IMG/VR virus record: IMGVR_UViG_3300021474_000027
Location: 1-27,403 of that record
Reading direction: 5' to 3' (one strand)
DNA length: 27,403 nt
DNA from: a virus
The translations under genes were made by a program, and so were the position numbers. Positions 135 through 9,775 of this stretch are shown piece after piece. The notes beneath the pieces were generated by a model, which saw nothing but the letters and a program-made list of their open reading frames with translations, ran no database searches and was not told where the DNA came from. Position 1 is the stretch's first letter. The number at the start of each line of letters is the position of its first letter.

Positions 135-1877
135 CTACGTCCTATGCTTGATCGTCTCGACGAACGCGCCTTGAAGCGCCGTGTTCATCGGCGCGGACCA
201 CGATAGCTCAAACACCCGATCGCGCGCCATGCCGAGCTTGTTCCATTTCACGCTCGTCAGATATTGCCCTTCCGACCCGAGCGATTGTTCGATGGCATTC
301 CCGAACGTCGCGCCCCGATCGTCGGACCAGCGCAGGCTGATCATCGGCGGCGCACTCGTCACGCTGCCGGCGAGCGTCCCGACCTGGATATCGGCGATGA
401 AGCTGCAATAGGTCACGCGCGAGCCGTCCTCTATTTCGTGCGGGAAGGTGCGGATGCGCGAAATCGGGTTGCCGTTGTCCGTATAGGCGGTCGAGCTCAG
501 CGCGTAGAGATTGCCGTTCTGCCAGTCGCCGACGATGTTTTGTCCGTAGGCGAAGCAGGCGCAATTCGCGCGGTGGCGGTTGAGGTTGCCGTTTGCGTCC
601 GTATATGCCCATTCGCACCATTGCCGCGTCTGGATATCAAACAGCCAAGTGGCGTTTGCAGTGGGAAAAGTGATGGCGTAGAAAATATGGCCGTCGATCT
701 GAAAGGTGAAGCCGATCGCGTCGGAAAGCCTCGCGTAGCCCTGAAATATCGCCTCGATCGCGTGCGTGGAGATCCTGATCGCGTTGTAGCCCTGGATCAT
801 CAGGACGATCGCCTGCCCCTGCCGATCTTGGCTCAGCCAGAACGCCGAGCGGTCATTCGCCGCGACGGAAAACGGGGCGACGCAGCCATGTTCGATAAAG
901 ACGCCCGGCAACGGCTGAAAGGTGAAGTCTGCGGCCCCCGAATTGATCCACGCCTCAGTCGTGAGCAGCCCGATCGGCCACAAGGTATTGTAGACCACGA
1001 TGACGCGCGCGATCGCGTCCGCCGAGCCCGACTTGGCCGCGATGTCGAGCGGATCGAACGCGGGGGCCATAGGCGAGGTCACAGTCCATGTGAACCCCGT
1101 CACGCCGCCGATAGTGGCCGACACGGCTGAGAGCACGTCATTGAGCGCATAGCCCTCGCCGCCAGTGTCGATCGTGACCCCAGTTACGACGCCGCCTTGA
1201 ACCGTGATATCGGCTGTCGCCCCGGTTCCGTGGCCTCCCGTGAGCGCAACGCCGAAATATGTATTGTCCGTGCCGCCCGTGCCGGCGTTGGAAATATTGC
1301 CTTGGCCGATGCTGGTCTGCGTCAGTAGCGCGAAACTGACTTCGGACAGGCTGATGTAGAGGTCGAACGTTCCCGGCTTGTTGAAGATGAAAAACGTCGT
1401 GTTGTAGTCGACGAAATTGGAGCCAAGAAAATTCGGATCGGAGATCGTCCCCCAGGTCCGCGGGATTGGAAGGCCGCTGATCGATGGCGGCGTGATGTCG
1501 ATGCAATAGCCGAGCGTGGTTCCATCGACGATCACAACGACGATTCCGTTGTCCGCAAACGAAACCGGCGTCGAGTTGAACGGAATCGAGCCGAGTAGGT
1601 GAAAGGCGAAATTCGGATCGACGTAATAGACTTGCGTTCCGACAACCGCATATAGATCGCCATTGGTAGCGCGATAGGTCGCGCGGTACTCGCCGACGTT
1701 GGGCGCGGTCGCGAGGAGATTGAGGCCCGGCGTCTGGAATGTCGTGACCGGAACCGGAGCTTGGCCTTCTTCCGGGTTTATTTCGGGATACAGGTTTATA
1801 CACCTTTGCGCCGACGATATTACTGACCTAGACTGGTAAGCTCCCCCCAGCAATGGTATTCGCGTGACTTGTCCCAT
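135..1877 (-). CDS. P22 gp10-like tail protein (packaged DNA stabilisation protein)
   Basis: This 580-residue protein resembles the phage stabilisation (P22 gp10) family, which forms part of the tail neck below the portal and keeps packaged DNA inside the head. Typical features are the N-terminal TRIPLLGGAYQSRSVI segment followed by NLYPE, and the C-terminal GQYLTSVKWNKLGMARDRVF. Residues of about 200-270 look like an inserted Gly/Thr/Val-rich beta domain (YFGVALTGGHGTGATADIT, then GGEGYALNDVLSA). The start is ATG at 1877. Its first 50 bases overlap the 3' end of the HNH endonuclease gene and have unusual, AT-richer codons, and the Shine-Dalgarno there is weak. An older copy of this gene's 5' end lies at 2582-2653. 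Confidence 0.8.
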   Translation of the reverse strand: MGQVTRIPLLGGAYQSRSVISSAQRCINLYPEINPEEGQAPVPVTTFQTPGLNLLATAPNVGEYRATYRATNGDLYAVVGTQVYYVDPNFAFHLLGSIPFNSTPVSFADNGIVVVIVDGTTLGYCIDITPPSISGLPIPRTWGTISDPNFLGSNFVDYNTTFFIFNKPGTFDLYISLSEVSFALLTQTSIGQGNISNAGTGGTDNTYFGVALTGGHGTGATADITVQGGVVTGVTIDTGGEGYALNDVLSAVSATIGGVTGFTWTVTSPMAPAFDPLDIAAKSGSADAIARVIVVYNTLWPIGLLTTEAWINSGAADFTFQPLPGVFIEHGCVAPFSVAANDRSAFWLSQDRQGQAIVLMIQGYNAIRISTHAIEAIFQGYARLSDAIGFTFQIDGHIFYAITFPTANATWLFDIQTRQWCEWAYTDANGNLNRHRANCACFAYGQNIVGDWQNGNLYALSSTAYTDNGNPISRIRTFPHEIEDGSRVTYCSFIADIQVGTLAGSVTSAPPMISLRWSDDRGATFGNAIEQSLGSEGQYLTSVKWNKLGMARDRVFELSWSAPMNTALQGAFVETIKHRT

Positions 1878-2484
1878 CAGAGGGATTCTTCACGAACATT
1901 CGTTCGGGAGGCCATTTCCGCACATACCTCATCTTCATTGCGCAAAAGCTGATGCCGACATGCGCCGCCGCCTCGCTGAGCGTGATGCGTCCCCACGGGC
2001 TTTCGACGTAATAGCACGACCGCCGATTTCGTGATTGGGCCGTTCTAGTTGCCCAAATGCAGTTATCTGACGAATACGGGCCGTCATTGTCCTCGCGCTC
2101 GATCGTCATGCCGTCTTGATATGTCGAGGCCATATCGTCGTAGAAATTCTCAAATGTTTGCCAGCGCTCGCAAACAACAATTCCGCGTCCGCCATAATTT
2201 TTGAACGGCTTGCCATTGGGATTACGACAGCGGCTGAGCATTCCCTTCCATACACTAAACAGCGGAGTTCCCGTCATGCCGTGCGTAGTCAGACGCGCGA
2301 CTGTCTCTTCCCTGTGCCAACAACCGCACGACCTTGCGTCGTTGGCCAGATAGCTGGCGGAATACAGCTTTTCCGTTCCACATTCGCATCGGCATAGCCA
2401 CCGACGACGCCCAGAAAGGGAGCCGTTTGCTGACAAAACTATCAGCCTGCCAAACGACTTTCCGGTTAAGTCCAATGCTCTCAT
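1828..2484 (-). CDS. Free-standing HNH/AP2-type homing endonuclease (intact)
   Basis: This 218-residue protein belongs to the free-standing phage HNH endonucleases. The N-terminal part has the DLTGKSFGRLIVL opening and a zinc-binding-looking cysteine set (WLCRCECGTEK, then SCGCW). The central part has KNYGGRGIVVCERW and the HNH-type segment IEREDNDGPYSSDNCIWAT. The C-terminus carries a helix-turn-helix-like piece (TLSEAAAHVGISFCAM), as expected for target binding. Such enzymes nick or cut an allele lacking them and spread by recombination. The last 16 codons overlap the start of the gp10-like gene in another frame and end at a TAG inside it. Base composition is lower in GC than the neighbours, a sign of separate origin. 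A frameshifted relative lies at 9150-9775. Confidence 0.85.
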   Translation of the reverse strand: MRALDLTGKSFGRLIVLSANGSLSGRRRWLCRCECGTEKLYSASYLANDARSCGCWHREETVARLTTHGMTGTPLFSVWKGMLSRCRNPNGKPFKNYGGRGIVVCERWQTFENFYDDMASTYQDGMTIEREDNDGPYSSDNCIWATRTAQSRNRRSCYYVESPWGRITLSEAAAHVGISFCAMKMRYVRKWPPERMFVKNPSDGTSHANTIAGGSLPV

Positions 2485-2581
2485 ATCCTGATATCCCTAG
2501 GCTCATCGCGTCAGCCTAACGGTATCAGAAACATTCTTATCAATCAACCATTTCGTATGAAATAGAGAGCAAACAAACAGT

Positions 2582-2653
2582 CCGCGCCGACGCGATTATC
2601 GCGCGCGACTGATAGGCGCCGCCGAGGAGCGGGACGCGGGTGACGACGCCCAA
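2582..2653 (-). pseudogene. Displaced original 5' end of the gp10-like gene
   Basis: Read from a TTG at 2653, 24 codons give LGVVTRVPLLGGAYQSRA followed by IIASAR, which matches the start of the intact gp10-like protein at 17 of residues 2-23. Similarity stops abruptly at 2582. The frame then continues through unrelated sequence to a TGA at 2540. Codons here are the GC-rich kind used in the rest of the phage, whereas the intact copy downstream is recoded at most synonymous positions. This is best read as the 5' end left behind when the endonuclease cassette (about 1810-2581) inserted. The remaining 2485-2581 shows no gene beyond the tail of this fragment. Confidence 0.8.
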
Positions 2654-2658
2654 AGTGA

Positions 2659-2883
2659 TCAGGCCGGCTTATGCTTGCGGTTGGCCAGCCATAGTTCGGC
2701 TTCTTCCAACTTCGTCACGGCCAGCGAATAATTGCGATGGCGACCGAGCGCGTCGATTTCGGCGACTATGCGATGAATCGCGATCCTAAGATCGTCAATT
2801 TTGTCGTCATGCTGGATGGATAGTCCATTGTTGAACGCCATTGGCGTTGCGGTTTGATCGTTTCCCATCGTATTATATTCCAT
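2659..2883 (-). CDS. Small two-helix protein, possible Acb2/Tad1-like cyclic-nucleotide sponge
   Basis: The protein has 74 residues, or 69 from the second ATG at 2868, which has the better-spaced GGAA. After a polar N-terminus it forms two predicted helices: one from about residue 26 (DDKIDDLRIAIHRIVAEID) and one with the signature SLAVTKLEEAELWLANRK, joined by ALGRHRNY. This SLAxTKLExAxxW signature is common in small phage proteins. I associate it with the Acb2/Tad1 hairpin fold, whose members sequester cyclic nucleotides or cyclic ADP-ribose signals of CBASS and Thoeris defence. That link is from memory and is tentative; a generic helical-hairpin protein is the alternative. It follows the fibre genes, at the end of the run cut by the endonuclease insertion. 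Confidence 0.5.
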   Translation of the reverse strand: MEYNTMGNDQTATPMAFNNGLSIQHDDKIDDLRIAIHRIVAEIDALGRHRNYSLAVTKLEEAELWLANRKHKPA

Positions 2884-2886
2884 CTA

Positions 2887-3168
2887 TTACTTCGGCGAGG
2901 GCGGGGTTGCCGGGGGCGCGTCGGCGGTCGGCTTCTTGGCGTCGCTGAGTTGCTTCGTCAGGTCATCGATCTGCTTTCTCTGCTGCTGCGCCAGTAGCGA
3001 GAGGGCCTGAATGTCTTCGAAGACGTGCTTGTGCAAGATCGAGAACGCCTCGAAATCTTGGCCGAGGTTGGTTGCTGGGTCGGGCGGCGCGGATTGCGCG
3101 AAGGCTCCGGTAGCGGTGGCGTACAGCAAGCCGCACCACAGCGACAGGGCGAGGATCGCTCGTTTCAT
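2887..3168 (-). CDS. Small secreted coiled-coil protein
   Basis: This 93-residue protein starts with ATG at 3168 directly after the TAA of the upstream fibre gene. Residues 1-24 form a Sec signal peptide (MKRAILALSLWCGLLYATA, then cleavage near GAFA/QSA). The middle, about residues 40-76, is amphipathic and coiled-coil-like, with LSLLAQQQRKQIDDLTKQL. The C-terminus is Pro/Ala-rich (PTADAPPATPPSPK). I do not recognise the family. Its position behind two signal-peptide-bearing fibre genes suggests an exported accessory or periplasmic partner of those proteins. It could instead be a spanin-like or other envelope protein, but no lipobox cysteine is present at the cleavage site. Confidence 0.65.
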   Translation of the reverse strand: MKRAILALSLWCGLLYATATGAFAQSAPPDPATNLGQDFEAFSILHKHVFEDIQALSLLAQQQRKQIDDLTKQLSDAKKPTADAPPATPPSPK

Positions 3169-4380
3169 TTAAGACGTGACTCCCTTGATAACCGTGAACT
3201 CGATCACGATCGCCTCAGAAAGGCTCCCGGCCGAATTGTTTCGGACGGTGATCGTTGCGGACCCAGTCGCCGCGCCGGCGTTCAACCCATAGGAGCCGAC
3301 CGTGCCACCGCTAATGTGGTTGAGAATGAGCGTGTCGGTCGCAGCGATCGAGGTATCGGTGAGGGTGAAGCTGACGATTGCACCGGCCGCGAGCGCCGCG
3401 TTGTTCATCGTGATTGCGCCAGTGACCTTGTTGAGCGTGACGCCGGTCGACTTGCTCGTCGCCTGAGTGACGGTCCCGCCCGCACCTGTCGCATATCCGA
3501 CACCACCTGATGGATTGTTGGAGAGCGCCTCGGCGAATGTAGCTATGCCAGCCCCATTGATGGCAAACCCGTTGCCTTGAATAGCATTTGTGGAATACGT
3601 GCCGAATAATTCAATGCCGACGCTGTGGGAACCTTGATCAAAATATGAAGTTGTCGAGCTTGTCCCATCGTAGACCGTGTAATCCTTGAGAAGGGTCGAG
3701 CCGAAGAAATATAGACCAGCATGGAATGCGAATGTCGTCGGCGACTGAGTGCCGACCTGTATTGCCGCGGAGGCTGGGAATGTATTGCTCCCCCCTGCAA
3801 TAGCTTGACAATTGGCCATGATACCAAGATATCCAGTTTGGTTAGGTAGTGGGTAATCAACATTGAAGTTGGTGCAGTCTGTCTCTAGTGAGTATCCGCC
3901 CGATGATGATCCAACTCCGCTATTTATAGTCAGGACACTATTGAGCGCATGGCCGAACGCGCTCCCTGGGTTAACAATCATCTCGGTTCCTAGCGCGATT
4001 TTATACTCTCCGGATACGCCAGAGCCAACGCTAGATGTCATTCTGATGATCGCCGCTGCTTCATTGAGCGCCGCGCTTGCGGCCGTCACATTCGAGTTTA
4101 GCGTCACCAGATTTGACGCCCCGGACCAAGATTGAGTGATGCCGGGAGTACCAGAGATATTCTGCGCCTGGACGAACGTATTTAGGTCCGACTGCGTCGC
4201 CATGCTCGCGGCGAGGTTGTTCAGCTGCGTGTTCATTACCTGGCCGGTAATCGCGCCGACGCCGTTCGTCTTGATTGTGGCGTTGATGAACGATTCGAGT
4301 TGCGCCCGCGTCATCGCGGATTGCGCGAGGGCCGGCGTGGCGAAGGCGATAAGCGCGACGGCAAGGATCGTGCGGTTCAT
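3169..4380 (-). CDS. Fibre-like virion or surface protein with signal peptide
   Basis: This 403-residue protein has a strong Shine-Dalgarno (GAGGA six to seven bases before ATG at 4380). It opens with a signal peptide (MNRTILAVALIAFATPALA/QS). Residues of about 22-66 (TRAQLESFINATIKTNG, then GAITGQVMNTQLNNLAASMA) are shared with the next fibre gene at 4425-5891, so this is a common N-terminal module. The rest is Gly/Ser/Thr/Ala-rich and probably beta-structured. The C-terminal 90 residues (from about GVTLNKVTGAITMNNAALA) resemble terminal domains seen in other phage tail fibres. The likely role is host recognition, but an export signal on a virion fibre is odd. Confidence 0.7.
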   Translation of the reverse strand: MNRTILAVALIAFATPALAQSAMTRAQLESFINATIKTNGVGAITGQVMNTQLNNLAASMATQSDLNTFVQAQNISGTPGITQSWSGASNLVTLNSNVTAASAALNEAAAIIRMTSSVGSGVSGEYKIALGTEMIVNPGSAFGHALNSVLTINSGVGSSSGGYSLETDCTNFNVDYPLPNQTGYLGIMANCQAIAGGSNTFPASAAIQVGTQSPTTFAFHAGLYFFGSTLLKDYTVYDGTSSTTSYFDQGSHSVGIELFGTYSTNAIQGNGFAINGAGIATFAEALSNNPSGGVGYATGAGGTVTQATSKSTGVTLNKVTGAITMNNAALAAGAIVSFTLTDTSIAATDTLILNHISGGTVGSYGLNAGAATGSATITVRNNSAGSLSEAIVIEFTVIKGVTS

Positions 4381-4424
4381 TTTGTATCCTCAACAAGCCG
4401 CCGTTTGCGCTGTCACTTGATTGT

Positions 4425-5891
4425 TTAGAACGATGGGATATATCTGGTGTTTCCGGAACTATCTTTGATCGTGAACCATTCCTGCACAGTCGTGTGAGAC
4501 CCCGTCGGGCCGACGGAACTCAGCGCCGTCGCCACGCTCCCATTTGCCGTGAATTGAGATGCGCCGACCACCAGCGATGACCCTGCCAATGTCAGCGTAC
4601 CTGTGCAATTTATAGGTTGGATCGTAACATTAGCCGTGGCTAGGAATGCTCCTAAGCCGCAGGTTTCTTCGCTGTCCGTAAGGGCGAAAGCGTCCCCGGT
4701 GAGTTGGATGGACCCGGTGTATATAGTTGACGATCCATTTGAAGCATGAAAATTTAGCGGCTGGCTTGCATTGTTAGCGCCCGTGCGTAGCAGAGCGCCC
4801 AACAGCACCCCAACCGTCGCGCCCCCATCCGTAGTAGAAAAGCAACTTGACCATCGGATCGATGTTGCTTGATTACTATCACAGCCAAATCCCAAAGCGC
4901 CCAGGCTGCTGAGCGTTCCATTGCCTTGAAGCTCTGCTGAGAACGCGACTCCAGTGCTCCCAGCCCCAGAGATACTGATGTCATTTTCCAGCCCGATGCC
5001 TGTCGCCGTTACTCCATTGTCGTTCCAAGCGAAGTTTCCCCCGAATGTTTGTGAGTTAATGGCTTGAGCAACGGCGAAAGAAAAGAAACCAACCGCATTT
5101 CCTTGATTCGGGGCGGTTCCCGCAGCCTGATTATTTTGGATGTAGACCCCGTAACCATCGGCGTTCTCGACAGTCGTTCCCGGATTAAGCACGACAGTTG
5201 CACGGTTGACATCGAAAAAGTGGTATGTCGATGCTATGACACTATGATATATGGTAGCCGCCGTCGTAGCCGTGGTCTGGGATAGAAACTGCGAGCCGTC
5301 AGCCGTGAAAACTCCGCCGGTAGTGAGGATTTGCGTGACAGCACCAGTCAATGCCCCACCAGAGAGAGGTAGGTCAAGCGAAGCGCCGCCAGTCAATGAG
5401 CCGGTGAACGTCGTCGCCGAGACACTAGTGAGCCCGGCAAGCGTCGTTGCCGTCGCCCCTAGCGATACGTTGGTGGAGCCGAGAATTACAGAGGAATTCA
5501 GCAAGCCAGCATTCGGCAGACCCGTCGCGTTTGTCAGCGATAGCGCAGTCGGCGTCCCCAGGTTCGCTCCCGTGATCGTCGGCGACGCCGAGAGCACCAT
5601 GCTTCCCGTGCCGGTGACGGAGTTGGCCAGCGTCACGCCGCCGTAAGTCAGCACGCCCAGCATCGTCAGCGGCTGACTCAGCGTATTGGGGTCCAGCCCC
5701 GTCGCCATGCTGGCGGCGAGATTTTGCAGCTGCCCATTTAGAATCGGGCCAGTAATCGCTCCTGTCCCATTCGCCTTGATGGTCGAATTGATGCCCGCCT
5801 CGAGCTGCGCGCGCGTTTGTGCGGTCTGCGAGAGGGCCGGCGTGGCGAAGGCGAAAGCGGAAATCGCTCCGACCAGCCGAACCAAATTCAC
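4425..5891 (-). CDS. Fibre-like protein with signal peptide, paralogue of neighbouring fibre
   Basis: This 488-residue protein starts at a GTG (5891) that overlaps the upstream stop as GTGA. The N-terminus is signal-peptide-like (MNLVRLVGAISAFAFATPAL, then SQ). It is followed by TRAQLEAGINSTIKANGTG and LNGQLQNLAASMATG, clearly homologous to the N-terminus of the 3169-4380 product. Residues of about 85-180 carry the repetitive fibre-type pattern (SASPTITGANLGTPTALSLT, then SLTGGASLDLPLSGGALTG). The C-terminal half is beta-rich with scattered cysteines. I read it as a host-recognition fibre or appendage. The two genes probably arose by duplication of the N-terminal anchor with different C-terminal receptor-binding parts. 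4381-4424 holds only the ribosome-binding site of the next gene. Confidence 0.7.
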   Translation of the reverse strand: MNLVRLVGAISAFAFATPALSQTAQTRAQLEAGINSTIKANGTGAITGPILNGQLQNLAASMATGLDPNTLSQPLTMLGVLTYGGVTLANSVTGTGSMVLSASPTITGANLGTPTALSLTNATGLPNAGLLNSSVILGSTNVSLGATATTLAGLTSVSATTFTGSLTGGASLDLPLSGGALTGAVTQILTTGGVFTADGSQFLSQTTATTAATIYHSVIASTYHFFDVNRATVVLNPGTTVENADGYGVYIQNNQAAGTAPNQGNAVGFFSFAVAQAINSQTFGGNFAWNDNGVTATGIGLENDISISGAGSTGVAFSAELQGNGTLSSLGALGFGCDSNQATSIRWSSCFSTTDGGATVGVLLGALLRTGANNASQPLNFHASNGSSTIYTGSIQLTGDAFALTDSEETCGLGAFLATANVTIQPINCTGTLTLAGSSLVVGASQFTANGSVATALSSVGPTGSHTTVQEWFTIKDSSGNTRYIPSF

Positions 5892-6306: not shown

Positions 6307-7194
6307 TCAGTACGCCCTATCGCTGAATATGTTGTAGCGCGATCCGTTCGAAGTCAGCCCGACCGGCAAGTCCAGCAACGGCACTTGCGTATTCGCCGAG
6401 CGTATCGTCGCGAGGGCCGCCTGCGCCAGCCCGAGCACTTCTTTCGACGCGTCAATCTGGTACTTAGCGGCAAACCTAATCGCGAGGTTATACTCGAAAG
6501 CTTCCTCGTATTCCGGCGGCGTCGCAAGGACCGTCGAGAGGTTCGCCAGCGTCGCGAGCACGTCCTTGACGAGGATGTGGAGTTCGAACATGCCAGCCAA
6601 GGGAATCGGGTTGACGTACAAAAACCCGCTCGGAACCGCCGCGCCGCCAGCCGGCGGGACCATCATCGTGCTTGCCGGATCGTAGAACAAGAACGCCGGC
6701 CACGAACTCATGTTTTTCAGCGCAATGCGGTTCCAATCCTCGCGCGATTGCAGCAGCATGAGGGGATAATCGACCGCATATCCGGGAGGTTGCGAAATCA
6801 GCGTGGGGGCGCCCCCGCCGAAGTCCGTACCGAAATCCTGGTTGAAGTCGGACAGGCCTCCAGTGAACGGAAAGTTGGAATTCGAGGCGCCCGGCGCGCC
6901 GCTGAAGTATTGCCGGAAGTAGCAGCCGTCCTCGAGCTTGTCGGGACGCGGGATGTTGAAGTTCTGCCCGAGTCCGACCGAATAGACGTTCAGCCCCGTG
7001 GTCGGGCAGGCGACGTCGACGGTATGGAAGACGAGCCAGCGCCGCCGGTTGAACTGGCCGATCATGGCGTTGAGGCGCGACAGGCCGAAATTGACGTCCG
7101 CAGCCAGCGGGGTCTGGCCGACGCCGATCACGCCCACGTCCTCGAGGGCGCGGAGGATTATGTCGCGGGCGGTAGTTGATGTGATGACAGCCAT
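6307..7194 (-). CDS. P22 gp4-like tail accessory factor (head completion protein)
   Basis: This 295-residue protein begins TSTTARDIILRALEDVGVI, then LNAMIGQFNRRRWLVF. This pattern is typical of the P22 gp4 / head-to-tail adaptor family, which adds to the portal ring after packaging and seals the head. The C-terminal third is helical (EEAFEYNLAIRFAAKYQI, then EVLGLAQAALATIRSANTQ), also as in the family. The start is ATG at 7194 in a TGATG overlap with the previous gene. Position downstream of coat and upstream of the gp10-like gene agrees with P22 order, although here several small genes and two fibre genes are interposed. Some gp4 proteins have muralytic activity; I see no evidence for or against that here. 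Confidence 0.75.
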   Translation of the reverse strand: MAVITSTTARDIILRALEDVGVIGVGQTPLAADVNFGLSRLNAMIGQFNRRRWLVFHTVDVACPTTGLNVYSVGLGQNFNIPRPDKLEDGCYFRQYFSGAPGASNSNFPFTGGLSDFNQDFGTDFGGGAPTLISQPPGYAVDYPLMLLQSREDWNRIALKNMSSWPAFLFYDPASTMMVPPAGGAAVPSGFLYVNPIPLAGMFELHILVKDVLATLANLSTVLATPPEYEEAFEYNLAIRFAAKYQIDASKEVLGLAQAALATIRSANTQVPLLDLPVGLTSNGSRYNIFSDRAY

Positions 7195-9149: not shown

Positions 9150-9775
9150 CTATTTTTCGTGCCAACGCATGTTGAATGAGACGCCGTCGAAAAGCCGATC
9201 CGCTGGCCATTTCGATGATAAGCGAGTGCAAATAGTCGCTCTATTGAGGCCAGAGGCTTCTGCGGCTTGCGTGATGTTCATTCGGCCAAGAGGGGTGTCA
9301 ATGATCCGGTTTGAGCTACGATTGTTGGCTTGCTCCTTGGCCGTCGCCCAACGCACGTTTCCGGGCTCGTAGTTCCCATTTCCGTCCGGATAGCGATCCA
9401 GCGTAGCCCCTTTGACCCACGTCGGGCCCATGTCTTCCCAGAACGCTTCGAATATGACCCAGAGCTCGCATACTTTAATCCCGCGAGCGCCGTACATCTC
9501 ATATGCGAAGTCTTTTGGATTTTCACACCTAGTCTTGGCGTGAAGCCAATTGCGGTAGGCTGGATGGCAGGACATGCCGTGCGTCGTGGCTTCTGCCTTG
9601 CGCATCTCCAGCGCTAAACAACCACAACTTTGTGACATACCCCGCTTCAAGTCGCCGCCGAACACGCTCTTTTCAGCGCCGCAATCCAATATTTGACTGG
9701 TCCGGGTCGGTCGGTCAGTCCCTTGACGCTCCAACGAACGAACTTTTTACCCGTAAGGTCTACGATCTTTGTCAC
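9150..9775 (-). pseudogene. Frameshifted HNH homing endonuclease
   Basis: A relative of the 1828-2484 endonuclease. Translation should begin at GTG 9775, with AGGAG eight bases upstream, giving the family opening TKIVDLTGKKFVRWSV and then GPVKYW. At about 9686 the frame is lost and this reading ends at 9647. The other frame then continues the protein from DCGAEKSVFGGDLKRG and SCGCLA through MYGARGIKVCELW, ATLDRYPDGNGNYEPGNVRW and a C-terminal helix-turn-helix (NITQAAEASGLNRATI) to 9150. Compared with WLCRCECGTEK of the intact relative, the LCRC part is missing, consistent with a small deletion that removed zinc ligands and shifted frame. It is inserted between coat and the next gene. Confidence 0.75.

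Follow-up and report, generated by a model that had tools for sequence, protein, structure and literature searches.

An HNH endonuclease gene flanked by a probable replacement start and a probable displaced start of the gp10-like head gene in a P22-like phage

Introduction

How does an endonuclease gene come to lie across the start of an essential phage head gene, with a truncated second copy of the same start just beyond it? This arrangement was noticed in a virus record of 27,403 nt (IMGVR_UViG_3300021474_000027; this whole stretch is called the window below). Phages often carry free-standing homing nucleases, yet what these enzymes target and where they cut is, to our knowledge, established in few cases. 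A stump that stops at the target break would reveal the target gene and the approximate cut site from sequence alone.

Results

Organization of the locus

The window contains P22-type genes for the portal, the major head protein, the terminase, a gp4-like protein and a gp10-like protein, and nearly all of its genes lie on the minus strand. The gp10-like open reading frame matches PHROG 578 ('head closure Hc3') with an E-value of 2e-99. It is an essential head gene, and we take its product to be the packaged DNA stabilisation protein. The endonuclease falls into the phage HNH families PHROG 374 (E = 2.7e-61) and PHROG 3377 (E = 1.4e-44) and has no Pfam match at 1e-3. The coordinates in the preliminary description all proved correct on re-check, and the parts are as follows.

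135-1877, minus strand: gp10-like head-closure gene (580 aa, PHROG 578), the target with the restored start, ATG at 1877
1734-1877, minus strand: putatively imported gp10 5' tract, codons 1 to ~48 (from GC3, codon use and nucleotide identity to L054 and L014)
1828-1877, minus strand: 50-nt dual-coding overlap of the HNH 3' end and the gp10 start (from ORF coordinates)
1828-2484, minus strand: HNH endonuclease gene (218 aa, matches to PHROG 374 and PHROG 3377), the mobile part
2485-2581, minus strand: AT-rich leader of 97 bp (GC 40%) between the stump and the HNH start (from the sequence)
2582-2653, minus strand: displaced, putatively native gp10 5' end (the stump), 24 codons with a TTG start (from tblastn)
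2659-2883, minus strand: upstream gene (74 aa), with 5 nt between its stop and the TTG at 2653
6307-7194, minus strand: gp4-like tail accessory factor (PHROG match), which in relatives lies directly before gp10 or HNH-gp10

The HNH gene ends with a TAG inside gp10 codons 16-17, bearing out the earlier claim that its stop lies within the restored start. The AlphaFold model of the HNH protein has a mean pLDDT of 90.4, with values of 49-61 for the last 18 residues, and the last ~17 codons, which overlap the gp10 start, are predicted to encode a disordered tail. No solved HNH structure is among the matches listed for this model. A second HNH gene of the window lies at 9150-9734 on the minus strand (PHROG 374, E = 2e-44); its closest relative in our set, at 65% identity, is located just upstream of gp4 in L054, and no flank duplication was detected around 9150-9734.

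A second, truncated gp10 start

When gp10 was searched against its own record by tblastn, a second copy of its start was found at 2576-2653 (E = 2.1e-6). This stump reads TTG-GVVTRVPLLGGAYQSRAIIASA from 2653 to about 2582, where homology to gp10 is lost after codon 24, and its reading frame ends at about 2540. Over residues 2-24, the stump and the restored start share 17 of 23 residues, of which 4 keep the same codon and 13 do not, confirming the duplicate with 17 identical residues and differing codons that had been described. At the nucleotide level 45 of 72 positions are identical, and the longest identical run is about 9-10. In a survey of HNH gene flanks (see below), the window scores 93 for flank duplication against a null mostly at or below 51, so the duplicate is beyond chance.

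Two trivial origins of the duplicate can be weighed here. As the window is a 27.4-kb virus record and probably a metagenomic fragment, the two copies might reflect an assembly chimera; however, they are too unlike to be mis-joined, and the same architecture is present in the complete genome of Calothrix NIES-4101 (L351) and in Comamonas sp. NoAH 11 (L371), which makes a chimera very improbable. A group I intron or other spliced element, with 2653-2582 as exon 1 and exon 2 beginning at codon 25, would account for the fact that the gp10 body could resume in frame where the stump ends. Such an element has next to no chance of being right: no Rfam match was found in the window at the gathering threshold, the gp10 ORF is uninterrupted and has a full in-frame start with its own ATG before codon 25, and 17 of 23 exon residues would not be encoded by an intron.

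The stump begins 5 nt past the stop of the 74-aa gene, and from this spacing the gene appears to have once abutted the native gp10 start. The 74-aa protein shows a weak match to the Acb2/Tad1 hairpin family (Pfam PF24729, 26.3 bits, under the cut-off of 27) and is conceivably a candidate anti-defence relative; no relatives of it were found in the viral contigs searched.

Origin of the two starts

The two copies differ sharply in composition. GC3 is 0.92 in the stump and about 0.8 in the gp10 body; in the restored gene it is 0.50 for codons 1-24 and 0.54 for codons 25-48, then 0.83. A-ending and similar codons make up 46% of gp10 codons 1-24 versus 7-8% of the body (Fisher p = 2.5e-6). The gp10 proteins most like that of the window among relatives without an HNH gene at gp10 are those of L014 (77% identity) and L054 (70%; counted here as HNH-less at gp10, its HNH gene being elsewhere, upstream of gp4). 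Nucleotide identity to these two is 0.50-0.57 over window codons 1-48 and 0.64-0.73 over later codons, and over this same 48-codon tract L014 and L054 share an identity of 0.61-0.65. Of the starts from HNH-less loci, those of L063 and L019 come nearest to one window copy or the other; they agree with the stump at 41 and 39 of 51 nt, respectively, and with the restored start at 34 of 51 in both cases. The contrast in GC3 and codon use, together with the closeness of HNH-less relatives to the stump, therefore points to an imported start of ~48 codons and a native stump; the polarity of the stump is indicated by these relatives. The preliminary description had the replaced part end at codon 24, which is wrong, because the foreign tract runs to about codon 48. 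Its proposal of a cassette that brought its own gp10 start while the native start was kept as a truncated stump is supported.

Across the compared genes, gp10 genes next to an HNH gene tend to have a lower 5'-end GC3 relative to the body (-0.113 vs -0.008 without HNH, p = 0.017), which fits import as well as selection. Looking for a close cassette donor by DNA pattern led to the L056 contig alone; a DNA search of phage records returned only short HNH-core matches, with the gp10 side unmatched. No gp10 relatives with the clade-specific patterns were found in genome contigs, and no close HNH-less relative with the window gene order was found in viral or genome contigs. The ancestral left flank described below is therefore a reconstruction.

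The gp4/gp10 junction in relatives

We gathered 110 gp10 loci by a gp10 profile search combined with portal- and HNH-based searches, 96 of which are distinct, long gp10 genes. At most loci gp4 immediately precedes gp10. The junction is polymorphic: an HNH gene lies directly before gp10 in 12 distinct cases from P22-like phages, namely the window and 11 other contigs in which gp4 ends 0.5-1.3 kb ahead of gp10 with the HNH gene in the gap, and 84 distinct gp10 loci lack it. A duplicate of the gp10 start is found at none of the 11 other junctions with HNH (best upstream score at most 46 vs 93 in the window) and at none of the 84 loci without it; nor do any of these 84 carry the recoded start, an occurrence that would have spoken against the earlier interpretation. 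Among loci examined closely, the HNH stop overlaps or abuts the gp10 start in L056, L058, L066, L168 and L169; L056 and L169 have an overlap like that of the window, with the HNH stop near gp10 codon 17. The HNH-bearing L195 and the HNH-less L190 have gp10 starts that are 89% identical, which means that an HNH gene can be present without a strongly divergent start.

In a tree of 159 HNH proteins, four junction HNHs (L056/L163, L076, L096 and L169) form one clade (SH-aLRT 99) that spans phages with different gp10s; the other junction HNHs, including that of the window, fall outside this clade, mostly without a resolved placement.

The window departs from the usual gene order on its left side. 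Relatives have gp4 directly before gp10, but 4.4 kb with tail-fibre-like genes separate the two in the window, so simple insertion at the usual site does not describe the left side, and the 'complete picture' of insertion, remnant and restored target drawn earlier is not supported. As L048 and L229 show, gp4 and gp10 can also be apart in phages that lack the HNH gene.

We note several further features around this junction. The tail-fibre-like genes of the window lie at 3169-5891 on the minus strand, and a relative of their N-terminus is downstream of gp10 in L015. Between gp4 and gp10, L010 (phage ctNMl277) has an annotated endonuclease that lies on the other strand at 2472-2960 (-), perhaps another nuclease type at the same junction. 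The gp10 genes of L054 (18639-20511) and L063 (19725-20703) each have a large insertion near residue 500; in L054 a further ORF of 429 aa, located 1.6 kb downstream, holds the gp10 3' end (residues 511-580), and Rfam gave no intron match.

Exchange of one block between two near-identical phages

L168 and L169 are nearly identical phages: they agree at 98.7% of positions over the 2.36 kb that end with the gp4 3' end, and downstream at 95.5% over 2.75 kb, where the alignment is clean from gp10 codon ~45. Between these stretches, the gp4 3' end and the HNH gene cannot be aligned, and the HNH genes differ. Codons 1-48 of gp10 are 74-79% identical, versus 93-97% for later codons. On this alignment, the swapped block consists of the gp4 end, the HNH gene and the first ~45 gp10 codons. 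HNH and gp10 start thus travel together, as expected from co-conversion during homing, and the block length fits the foreign tract of the window. Thus, both the GC3 and codon contrast and the L168/L169 comparison identify the replacement gp10 end as foreign.

A 26-nt block, AACCTGATCGCAGGCGCGCAACGCTG, is identical within the otherwise divergent swapped gp10 starts (L168:3104-3180 and L169:3998-4074); it covers codons ~15-23 from the L168 ATG, which is equivalent to the point at which the window stump stops, and may reflect a crossover point or a target-site effect.

Flank duplications at other HNH loci

HNH flanks were compared at the protein level for 168 and then 264 distinct loci, with random pairings as the null. 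The best null pairing was 51 for the 168 loci, apart from two at 134 and 124, and 50 for the 264 loci, apart from 132, 73 and 64; these outliers are presumably tandem HNH genes. Flank-duplication scars are present at 8 of 264 loci (about 3%), the window and seven more. In the 5' type, to which the window belongs, a stump precedes the HNH gene and the restored start is at the HNH end; in the 3' type, a restored end precedes the HNH gene and the displaced end lies in or after the HNH frame.

L104, 5' type: endolysin-like gene, stump MLTLEMMQRRWPHGD, restored MLTLEIMHRRWPAGN; no Pfam match, lysozyme/chitinase-like on our reading
L371, 5' type: RusA, Comamonas sp. NoAH 11, stump MITLTLPYPVSA fused in frame to HNH
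L351, 5' type: Mu-F-like gene, Calothrix NIES-4101 complete genome, score 51
L111, 3' type: NinX
L357, 3' type: Rha
L105, 3' type: 640-aa gene without Pfam match, score 50
L381, 3' type: 190-aa gene without Pfam match

By score, L105 and L351 are at the edge of the null, and their case rests on the matching gene ends. For L104, HNH-less relatives with an alignable start are nearer to the stump (35 vs 28 and 32 vs 26 of 45 nt). The polarity of the native end as judged from relatives concerns these two loci only, being shown for L104 and indicated for the window. In L371 (2962-3558), the HNH ORF opens with the truncated, putatively native rusA start, and the nuclease seems to borrow the start codon of its victim. 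Flank matches at L110, L128, L081, L231 and L335 were rejected as chance (low-complexity or frame-shifted), and that at L264 comes from two tandem HNH genes. A gapped match of low identity at L366 (score 87) is outside the eight scars.

These results bear on whether the nuclease drives the exchange. P22-like phages are mosaic and fibre modules shift around gp10, so two phages could have recombined with the HNH gene as a mere passenger at a gene boundary. We consider this unlikely, because the L168/L169 block is tightly bounded around the HNH gene, scars recur beside HNH genes at unrelated targets, and unrelated HNHs recur at the gp4/gp10 junction.

Recoding of the replacement start

As a rival view, selection may have favoured changes at the recognition site in the gp10 start of the cassette, leaving only native copies open to cutting. 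The different codons at 13 of the 17 shared residues would agree with such evolved immunity, as would CCATTGCTGGG, which is common to the gp10 starts of the window, L151 and L169 despite their different HNHs and is absent among the HNH-less starts listed. However, codon identity between the window copies is 0.21 (18 codons), and ordinary gp10 pairs of similar protein identity have a mean of 0.39 (sd 0.15), with 11% as low as 0.21; recoding beyond ordinary divergence is therefore not supported. The odd codons can be put down equally well to a lower-GC donor and to the coding overlap with the HNH 3' end, and L195 has little recoding. Selection for immunity is thus possible, but we lean against it. 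We are similarly doubtful of a broader reading, that intronless HNH elements carrying a recoded target end form a recurrent class in phages, in which the target is broken, healed and immunised in a single event, 5' or 3' stumps mark the far flanks joined without homology, and recoding is selected for self-immunity.

Discussion

A replacement gene end and a displaced native end both flank the window nuclease, and we think that this locus probably arose by homing with co-transfer of the donor gene end, in which the far side was joined without homology and the native stump was left. The HNH gene would be a homing endonuclease gene of the free-standing kind, resident at the P22-like gp4/gp10 junction, and its product would cut the gp10 5' region of phages that lack it. 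Repair would copy a donor block in which the HNH gene is accompanied by its flanks, among them the first ~45-50 codons of the donor gp10; this block would be fused in frame to the gp10 body of the recipient, as is shown for L168/L169 and strongly indicated for the window. Where gp4 is beside gp10, both flanks could recombine homologously and no trace would be left. In the window ancestor, gp4 was presumably already 4.4 kb away and the gp4 side of the donor had no partner. It would then have been joined to the broken end without homology, with the native gp10 start staying behind. Homology on the gp10 side without homology on the gp4 side would thus join the stump to foreign leader DNA, as observed. 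The stump would end at or near the cut, which its end places around codon 24. The divergent replaced start would plausibly also protect the new copy from cutting; in homing generally, donor sequence replacing the target is assumed to be protective for the recipient (PMC12724721).

Such stumps show how selfish nucleases can enter conserved, essential genes with no intron or intein involved, and how these nucleases drive mosaicism in structural genes on a fine scale. In phages, exchange boundaries are known to harbour nuclease genes (PMC10448857). The free-standing seg and mob endonucleases of T4 (PMC2988022) resemble the window HNH in being intergenic and intron-free with the target next door, in co-converting their flanks and in frequent ORF overlap, but the available part of that source does not describe a retained truncated native gene end or a duplicate. 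In ShiLan (PMC11855218), an intronless HNH ORF likewise lies out of frame within a coding sequence, that of a phage methylase, with the HNH stop at the insertion end; unlike in the window, the methylase gene reads straight through the insert, and a word search of the paper found no report of gene-end duplication. PMC2248197 was rejected as a precedent, as its topic is tail fibre domain duplication rather than gene-end replacement. Certain mitochondrial introns or former introns also carry foreign DNA homologous to part of the gene they enter, and partial foreign gene replacement by homing has been proposed for them; the window has no intron.

The closest known systems are the mORFs of fungal mitochondria, in Allomyces macrogynus atp6 and in Glomus atp6, atp9, cox2 and nad3 (PMC3630166). 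There, as in the window, a conserved gene has received an endonuclease ORF together with a divergent substitute for one of its ends; its native end lies displaced beyond the ORF, and many differences are synonymous. The fungal cases are mitochondrial and concern carboxy-terminal, 3' ends, with a LAGLIDADG enzyme in Glomus atp6, whereas the window has a phage HNH-type enzyme, a 5' end and an overlap between HNH and target. Gene-end replacement is thus known from fungal mitochondria, and we found no phage variant with a retained stump in the literature searched, outside which most subscription journals lie. The parallel between the two settings points to gene-end replacement as a general solution to the same problem.
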